Shown one piece after another: positions 479 to 64,000 of a DNA stretch of 64,000 nucleotides (position 1 is its first letter; every line of letters starts with the position of its first letter). A program made the position numbers and the translations under genes. The stretch is from Telmatactis stephensoni (taxonomy: Eukaryota > Cnidaria > Anthozoa > Actiniaria > Isophelliidae), in the NCBI GenBank assembly GCA_029948255.1, contig JALIZF010001879.1, positions 744,001-808,000 of the forward strand, in the 5' to 3' direction. The notes beneath the pieces are model-generated. The model was not told the origin of the DNA. It saw only the letters and a list, made by a program, of their open reading frames with translations, and did not search any database.

Positions 479-1247
479 ATGTTTGGAACGGAATTTACGA
501 GCCATTCCAAGTATTTCAGCAGGTACAGACTCTACACTTCCAGAGAACTGTGGATTTTGATTCTGCTATTTTGTTTTTGTTCGGATAGTGAAGCAGCTCT
601 GCCCGTCTGTCCAACTGCGGCTACAGCTAGTATAACATCGCCTTGTAAATTTTCTCCTGGCGTTCACAATTTTTTATCGCTGACTATCGACAGCGATGTT
701 TACTTCGAGTCATCTGCCGGGGCAAGTCGGCATACCTTAAAGGTTACTCAGACTTTGCAAATTAATTCAAAAGCGATTCTTCAAGTTGGTTTTAATAAAG
801 ACGCTGCCAACAATGGAACTGGAGTGAGCCACCTTAATGGTGGCACTGGAGGAAGCTATGGTGGTCGTGGAGGTACTGCATCAAGAATGGTTTTAACTTC
901 AACCCAAGCAGTACCCTATGGAAACCCCTTCAACGTGTCAGAGCCAGGAAGCCGTGGTGGAGGCGGTGTCGGTGGTAAAGGTGGTGGGTTCTTACAACTT
1001 GAAGCTCGAAAGGTCATCCTCAATGGAATCGTGAAGGCACCAGGTGGACATGGTAGTAGTAATAGTGGTGGAGGAAGTGGCGGTGGAATTGCTGTCTACT
1101 GCTTTGAAATTGACGGTAACGGCAAGGTGGAGTCCATGGGTGGTCTTGGGCATGGTACAGGTGGAGGGGGTAGTGGAGGTAGAGTGTCAATTGCCTACAA
1201 GCAAGGTGCCTATCGATGGAGCACACATGCCTATGGTGGCAAGACAG
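479..1247 (+). CDS. Exon 1: signal peptide and glycine-rich half of unit 1
   Basis: The ATG at 479 has A at -3. Residues about 23-40 form a hydrophobic stretch (LWILILLFCFC) ending at a plausible signal-peptidase site (SDSEA before ALPVC), so the protein should enter the secretory pathway. A short Cys-containing cap follows, then the first glycine-rich block with GGSYGGRGG, YGNPF, GGGSGGGIAVY and GGGGSGGRVSIAY. The exon stops inside the repeat at YGGKT with a GT donor at 1248, phase 1. The long n-region before the hydrophobic stretch is unusual, so a start in another 5' exon is possible. Confidence 0.8.
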
Positions 1248-1854
1248 GTCTGTTTTTTGTCTTTTTTATTTAGAATATTGATATGCCTTAATGCTCAAAT
1301 TGTAATTCATTTACAAACAACTGACACGAAATAATTTTACCACTACTTTGGTTTGTATTTTATTGCTCAATTTGTTTATTATTTTCTACAGCAGACATGC
1401 TTAGTAATGGAATTGTTTACTTTCGATAAATATTGATTCGTTCCAATATTCTCCTCAAATTCCAAGAAATTATCTTTTGGCAATCAATAATTTGTCGATT
1501 TTGAATACCAGTTTGCTCAAAAGATCCTGCAATTATACTATAATCCTGTTATAATATTTTAAAATGAATTATTTGACACGCTTGTGCATTTGTTAGTGCT
1601 GAAAGGCATTCAGTTTTTTTATGATAATGGATTCAATCACTGGGATTGTACTCGAAGTATCTATTAAGAATCCTCTGAAGCGAGAAATTGTATAATAAGA
1701 TTTCATATTCATGCTATTTTTGTTCTTGCTTTTGGCAATCGTGAATAGATCACTTGAGATTTAGCGTCCCTCTTTATGGATGAGCAACGCCACAAAGAAC
1801 GTGCGTTGATACTTGGCTAAGTTTTATTAAGTGGAACGATGGTTTTCCACCGAT

Positions 1855-63223: not shown

Positions 63224-63585
63224 GCAAGTATACTATTTTTGGTAGATAACTGAGTAAGCCCACTCAGTACTACTGTGAAAGTTAAATATATGGAAGACAA
63301 AGTCTTGCTTGAATTTAATGTTTATTTGAATACATCCCTCGCAAAGTCCATTACAGGGTACTTAATTCTATGCGGGCTTTACGAATCCTATAATCAATGC
63401 GTTTGAACGCCTACAGGACAAGAAAAGACATAGAGGGGGCACTTTACAAAATATACTCAAATCTGAGCTAAAAGGAGATTCCATTGTCATTGGAGAACTT
63501 ATTTAATCTAGCCATAAATTGCATACGGTAGTCTTTGTTATCATTTTAAATTGTGCCCGATTTTTTATTTGTGATATATTTATAG

Positions 63586-64000
63586 ATTTGAAGCTGGTGG
63601 TGCTGGAACTGTCTTTCTCAGAGATCTCCAAAAGAACACTCGAAAACTAGTGGTGAACAACAACAATGTTGGGGCACCAAAAACAGATGACATCACCAGC
63701 GTTGATAACGATGGAGGGAGAACCTGGATCACACCAGAAAGCTCAATGAAATCAATTGACTTCGATCAAGTTGACATACGAGGAAAATCCCAGTTGGCTG
63801 TACTCACAGATCCTCCAGGGACTTCTATACAATGGGCCATCCGCGGTTTCACGGGAGATCTGTCAGGAATCTTACATATTCAAGAAAAGCAATCTTTGAA
63901 GATGACTTCAAGTGGTGTTAGTGCCAGCGGCGAAAAGCTCCCTTTGGGTGTTAATGTGTACAGACGAGGCGATGTCCAACTGCCTGAAAATTTATTCATT
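63586..64000 (+). CDS. Exon 51 (cut by the window edge): beta-rich half of unit 14
   Basis: FEAGGAGTVFLRD, RKLVVNNNN, DNDGGRTWITPESS, FDQVDIRGKSQLAVL, FTGDLSGILHIQEKQ, LPLGVNVYRRGDVQLP. The frame is open to the last base, so the exon and the gene continue beyond the window. Confidence 0.9.

Follow-up and report, generated by a model that had tools for sequence, protein, structure and literature searches.

The window analyzed here is a 64-kb stretch of DNA from the sea anemone Telmatactis stephensoni (contig JALIZF010001879.1, positions 744,001 to 808,000). Positions 479-64000 of its + strand most likely form part of one giant gene, whose end is not reached. The gene encodes tandem units of about 420 residues, named W1 to W14, and we consider it likely that its product is a secreted, N-glycosylated giant protein whose beta-helix units stack into a long stiff rod serving in the matrix or in adhesion. 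Relatives, numbered with the prefix P, were collected with the open stretch 35515-38217, which spans two units, as the query, and a unit profile hidden Markov model (HMM) of 417 columns was built from the best 120 of 305 relatives with 35524-36828 as the seed. Six-frame open reading frames (ORFs) of at least 20 residues were searched with this unit HMM (E < 0.01 at a database size of 1000). All 51 ORF matches were on the + strand and repeatedly followed the order of the profile, from position 794 to position 63997. In every unit the best stretch reaches E 1.3e-44 or lower, and 75 of the 91 unit pairs matched each other in BLASTP, with a median identity of 30%.

A looping spliced alignment, carried out with a custom program, gave 4519 bits over 50 exons and 5,757 residues; this score is inflated, because matching ORFs of the window itself were part of the profile's training set. 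With profile and settings unchanged, the reverse complement gave 19.7 bits and one shuffled window 18.5 bits. Starting at the ATG at 479 adds 89 residues and brings the model to 5,846 residues in 14 units, the last cut at position 64000, in agreement with the initial annotation, which had described a giant protein of at least 14 repeats that does not end within the window. The list of exons is an approximation: the 5-nt exon 41312-41316 is probably spurious, and the model lacks the coding sequences 12074-13083 and 39535-39750, of which the second belongs to an inserted module. The roughly 6,800 residues of the initial annotation are thus plausible.

Deposited proteins of about 2,800-7,500 residues with the same units were found in sea stars, acorn worms, bivalves, an annelid, a tunicate and a sea anemone. 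They are annotated as uncharacterised or misnamed 'Tenascin-X' (several so in UniRef), examples being Patiria miniata LOC119725183, Mactra antiquata ACF0H5_014598, and Saccoglossus LOC144342564 and LOC100369350. The Mactra antiquata protein P0224 (7,530 residues) is colinear with model residues 503-5846. Reciprocal best units in the same order numbered 9 of 14 in each of Mactra, Patiria and Owenia, and 7 in Saccoglossus P0227; those that were not reciprocal best in Mactra were W1, W5, W7, W12 and W14. The identity of reciprocal best units was 30-56% in Mactra, Patiria and Saccoglossus P0227. Units 1, 2 and 4 of a second Saccoglossus protein, P0234, correspond to W10, W11 and W13, and about nine units extend beyond W14, where the Mactra protein suggests about one more. 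In the sea anemone Actinostola (P0235), units T1, T2 and T3 correspond to W11, W12 and W13 at 74, 66 and 66% identity, above the other ten proteins compared. Judged from these alignments, unit order was probably kept between Cnidaria and Bilateria.

Several points qualify the case for a single gene with a conserved order. Phase, the GT/GC-AG borders and the stop-free frame of the spliced model were forced by the program and are not independent evidence; since its profile had also seen the window ORFs, the ORF search with the unit HMM is the cleaner test. In Potamilus P0239 four reciprocal best units were out of order, as was one each in P0235 and P0240. A tandem cluster of adjacent paralogous genes, with several units each, could mimic one gene, and the stop-free model carries no weight against it because stops were barred by design. 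Existing annotations do split the region, into LOC144342564 and LOC100369350 in Saccoglossus (both listing a longest contig of 288578 bases), CHS0354_004945, 004947 and 004948 in Potamilus (contig 1927029), and BSL78_01924 and 01925 in Apostichopus (1204955). However, single deposited proteins cover many consecutive units in order, that of Mactra from residue 503 to the window end, and the split Saccoglossus models continue each other, P0227 covering W2-W9 and P0234 then W10, W11 and W13. Colinearity with single deposited proteins is the independent evidence, and therefore one gene across the window is most likely and a gene cluster unlikely. The features are as follows:

479..1247, + strand: first coding exon, with the start codon, a signal-peptide-like N-terminus (hydrophobic WILILLFCFCSDSEA) and then the glycine-rich half of W1
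791..13178, + strand: W1, including a 9.1 kb intron (1248-10362)
about 12074-13516, + strand: extra beta-rich coding sequence, after or overlapping the end of W1
13554..15802, + strand: W2, reciprocal best match to Mactra T2
15824..21510, + strand: W3, reciprocal best match to Mactra T3
21541..33703, + strand: W4, with a 9.2 kb intron (22585-31800), reciprocal best match to Mactra T4
33710..35523, + strand: W5, with frame breaks at 35234-35237, 35451-35452, 35489-35492 and 35523, its end placed at the last break
35524..36828, + strand: W6, one open frame, 556 bits to the HMM that it seeded, structure predicted
36829..38079, + strand: W7, one open frame, 536 bits to the HMM, structure predicted
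38128..42169, + strand: W8, with a frame break at 38245-38258 and an inserted module in ORFs 38432-39406 and 39535-39750
42188..45241, + strand: W9, unit match
45648..49662, + strand: W10, with the inserted module detected weakly in ORFs 45624-46697 and 48395-48592
49696..52218, + strand: W11, best alignment to Actinostola unit T1 at 74% identity
52668..60073, + strand: W12, with a 4.2 kb intron (53230-57383), and in which ORF 58156-58407 may hold a copy of the inserted module
60089..62329, + strand: W13, unit match
62357..64000, + strand: W14, truncated at profile column 319-320 of 417, where the window ends

The inserted module of W8, about 130 residues long, was detected with an insert HMM at E 8.3e-15 and 8.8e-19; it is strongly conserved in the bilaterian giants and matches no Pfam family. 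Matches to the same HMM were weak in W10 (E 0.013 and 0.01) and W12 (E 0.0029). No match to F5/8 type C (PF00754) at E <= 1 was found in 38432-39409, 45624-46700 or 58547-59083. The largest introns contain pieces of reverse transcriptase or endonuclease, and tandem repeats. Within the first intron lie a reverse transcriptase ORF of 778 residues on the - strand (2139-4475, PF00078 at E 5.9e-32), judged to be of long interspersed nuclear element (LINE) type, and a clean 17-bp minisatellite (8300-8678, 22 copies, 96% match) that is open in several frames. Broken endonuclease/reverse-transcriptase-like pieces occupy 54088-56927 (- strand) in the W12 intron; their matches to PF14529 and PF03372 are weak and fall short of the cut-off. 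The W4 intron holds an open frame of 156 residues (25946-26416, + strand) with no Pfam match at E <= 0.01, and an 86-bp tandem repeat (21592-22017, 5 copies, 93% match) lies directly before the W4 exon at 22234.

The relative P0001 (1206 residues) aligns along 34759-38339 at 74-85% identity. Because P0001 codes through them, the three model introns 35219-35276, 35398-35551 and 38200-38258 are read as frame breaks, and 34759..38339 on the + strand is probably, on this alignment, one exon of about 3.6 kb, comprising part of W5, W6, W7 and the start of W8, with the five breaks listed above inside it. Overlapping ORFs hint at two further frame changes near 12450 and 12770, where no relative was compared. 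Such breaks would be expected if this member of the family were decaying or non-functional. Against this, W6-W7 is open and 82% identical to P0001, and the remaining units read in matched ORFs along all 64 kb. The frame changes are small and clustered, one of them in a run of T, which would fit assembly error. We lean towards assembly error rather than a damaged allele, and regard a decayed copy as very improbable.

The initial annotation recognised no named animal family, and this holds: none of the six window ORFs scanned matched a Pfam family above its cut-off, and the animal giants are the uncharacterised or 'Tenascin-X' proteins described above. No characterised member was found among them, nor any paper on the family in the open-licence literature. 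Tenascin is defined by EGF-like repeats, fibronectin III repeats and a C-terminal fibrinogen domain. No EGF-like, fibronectin III or fibrinogen match was found in the six window ORFs (the C-terminus lying outside the window) or in P0223, P0230, P0227 and P0229. The more distant giants P0243, P0301 and P0340 carry PF07974, which we take to be EGF-like, and PF25024.

The G8 domain (PF10162) matched the window at 49111-49584 with 13.5 bits, below the Pfam cut-off of 22.9. P0223, P0230 and P0220 exceed this cut-off as whole proteins, with no single stretch passing it, and in Patiria and Mytilus the G8-like matches fall close to the unit end, at about columns 343-427. The likeness to G8 is a weak profile likeness near the unit end and does not include the glycine-rich half. 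CEMIP, TMEM2 and PKHD1 are G8 members, and CEMIP and TMEM2 are linked to hyaluronan, so that a beta-helix protein which binds or acts on carbohydrates, instead of a passive fibre, was considered. This is improbable, given that neither the window nor any single stretch of the relatives passes the G8 cut-off, that the G8 match of the bacterial P0220 lies outside its unit matches, that no catalytic family matched in the six ORFs, and that glycine occupies 17 of the 29 invariant unit columns.

The N-terminus from the ATG at 479 carries a hydrophobic stretch resembling a signal peptide, and the model contains 78 N-glycosylation sequons, whereas 200 shuffles gave 46.8 on average and never more than 63. 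BLAST matches of the N-terminal exon to the giants were weak (P0229 at E 0.010, P0232 at E 0.069, P0227 none). The hydrophobic stretch and the sequons suggest that the giant protein is probably secreted, as the initial annotation had proposed.

The tandem beta stacks that it had also foreseen are borne out by structure prediction. W6-W7 were predicted confidently as a beta-helix, with a predicted local distance difference test score (pLDDT) of 93, in which short parallel strands stack into a right-handed parallel solenoid. The glycine-rich half is predicted to form a short beta-helix with long glycine loops, which are non-strand and have block pLDDT values mostly above 90. A Foldseek search against the PDB gave no close match, and a PDB sequence search gave no match better than E 0.3. 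In a viral structure library, predicted proteins of algal viruses and giant viruses (Bathycoccus, Ostreococcus, Pandoravirus, Orpheovirus) resemble part of the two-unit model, and of these only the Bathycoccus protein reaches E <= 0.001.

Outside the named animals, 13 relatives (two choanoflagellate, one protist, seven bacterial, one archaeal and two unnamed) scored 311-918 bits with an HMM built from P0001-P0085 and the window ORFs, the guide HMM for collecting sequences having seen all 120 relatives. Shuffled and reversed copies of these 13 gave at most 0.9 bits or were not reported; the composition correction was large, at 95-372 bits across the 16 proteins to which this test was applied. 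The best stretch ends at columns 204-258, corresponding to the glycine-rich half, in the ten relatives that are prokaryotic or unnamed. It extends to columns 359-405 in the two Salpingoeca rosetta proteins and the protist P0102, covering almost the full unit. When 65 glycine-rich modules were placed in a tree, prokaryotic and eukaryotic sequences separated with one misplaced, at a support of 0.187. Many prokaryotic-looking relatives among P0264-P0333, of about 3,100-3,600 residues, carry PF00656, presumably caspase-like, and PF24595 beside the glycine-rich module, and P0333 is named a caspase family protein of Verrucomicrobiales. The 13 relatives outside the named animals agree with the view in the initial annotation that the fold is old. 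With relatives in animals, choanoflagellates, a protist and bacteria, the protein is not an orphan; its NF047640 (see below) and G8 matches stayed below the cut-offs. In its order of glycine motifs the unit may resemble plant glycine-rich proteins of the AT4G32920/AT5G47020 type, the former named in the initial annotation. No plant-named protein was among the 120 matches listed in each search (of 305, 700 and 286 found), most of them without a name, and no paper was found on the Arabidopsis AT4G32920-type loci.

In the mechanism that we propose, each unit of about 420 residues would form a right-handed parallel beta-helix, and the units would stack end to end as a rod. The first half would be a helix of 4-5 rungs, from which long glycine-rich loops could emerge, pack beside the core in a polyglycine-like manner and form flat faces; the second half would be an adhesin-like helix without glycine loops. 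The inserted module would stand out at a fixed place from W8, and perhaps from W10 and W12. At about 14 rungs per unit and 0.48 nm per rung, a unit would measure an estimated 6-7 nm, and 14 units 90-100 nm if coaxial. By analogy with bacterial beta-helix adhesins, such a fibre in the extracellular matrix or at the cell surface may space surfaces and hold them together. A broader proposal, which we offer tentatively and with less than even confidence, is that the protein is an undescribed core component of the animal matrix, a coaxial beta-helix rod of 15-23 units and 100-150 nm with polyglycine-packed faces, which came from ancestors of choanoflagellate grade, whose unit order was frozen before the cnidarian-bilaterian split, and whose glycine-rich module is common to bacterial surface proteins such as AgmC. 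Giant extracellular proteins shape animal tissues, and members of this family occur in several phyla of animals and among choanoflagellates, with no curated family (Pfam, NCBIfam) above cut-off in the stretches tested. The conserved unit order makes its function testable by gene loss, and the glycine-rich half may tie the animal matrix to bacterial surface proteins.

Compared with known systems, the AgmC N-terminal domain (NCBIfam NF047640, gliding motility) matches the glycine-rich half through positions 243-404 of its 412 (E 8.3e-6 for the window, E 6.4e-19 for the bacterial P0099). Membership was rejected, since the match scores 25 bits where the curated cut-off is 275, and the second half of the unit is unmatched; no motility role is implied, and no paper on AgmC was found. 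The bacterial adhesins HMW1 and antigen 43 likewise form a long right-handed beta-helix, which on the window side is predicted. In contrast to them, the window holds a eukaryotic gene with introns and has no PDB sequence match better than E 0.3, and long glycine loops are not known in adhesins of this type. Polyglycine-II sandwich proteins, such as gp38 of phage S16 and the snow-flea antifreeze protein, have packed glycine strands with polyglycine II backbone angles. The animal giants share with the window the same unit, the same unit order and the same insert in W8; P0227 and P0229 differ in an N-terminal F5/8 type C domain (at 256-386 and 265-380), which was not found in the six window ORFs scanned. 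These proteins were already in databases, unnamed or misnamed, and what is new is a giant animal family with a predicted beta-helix and glycine-loop rungs.
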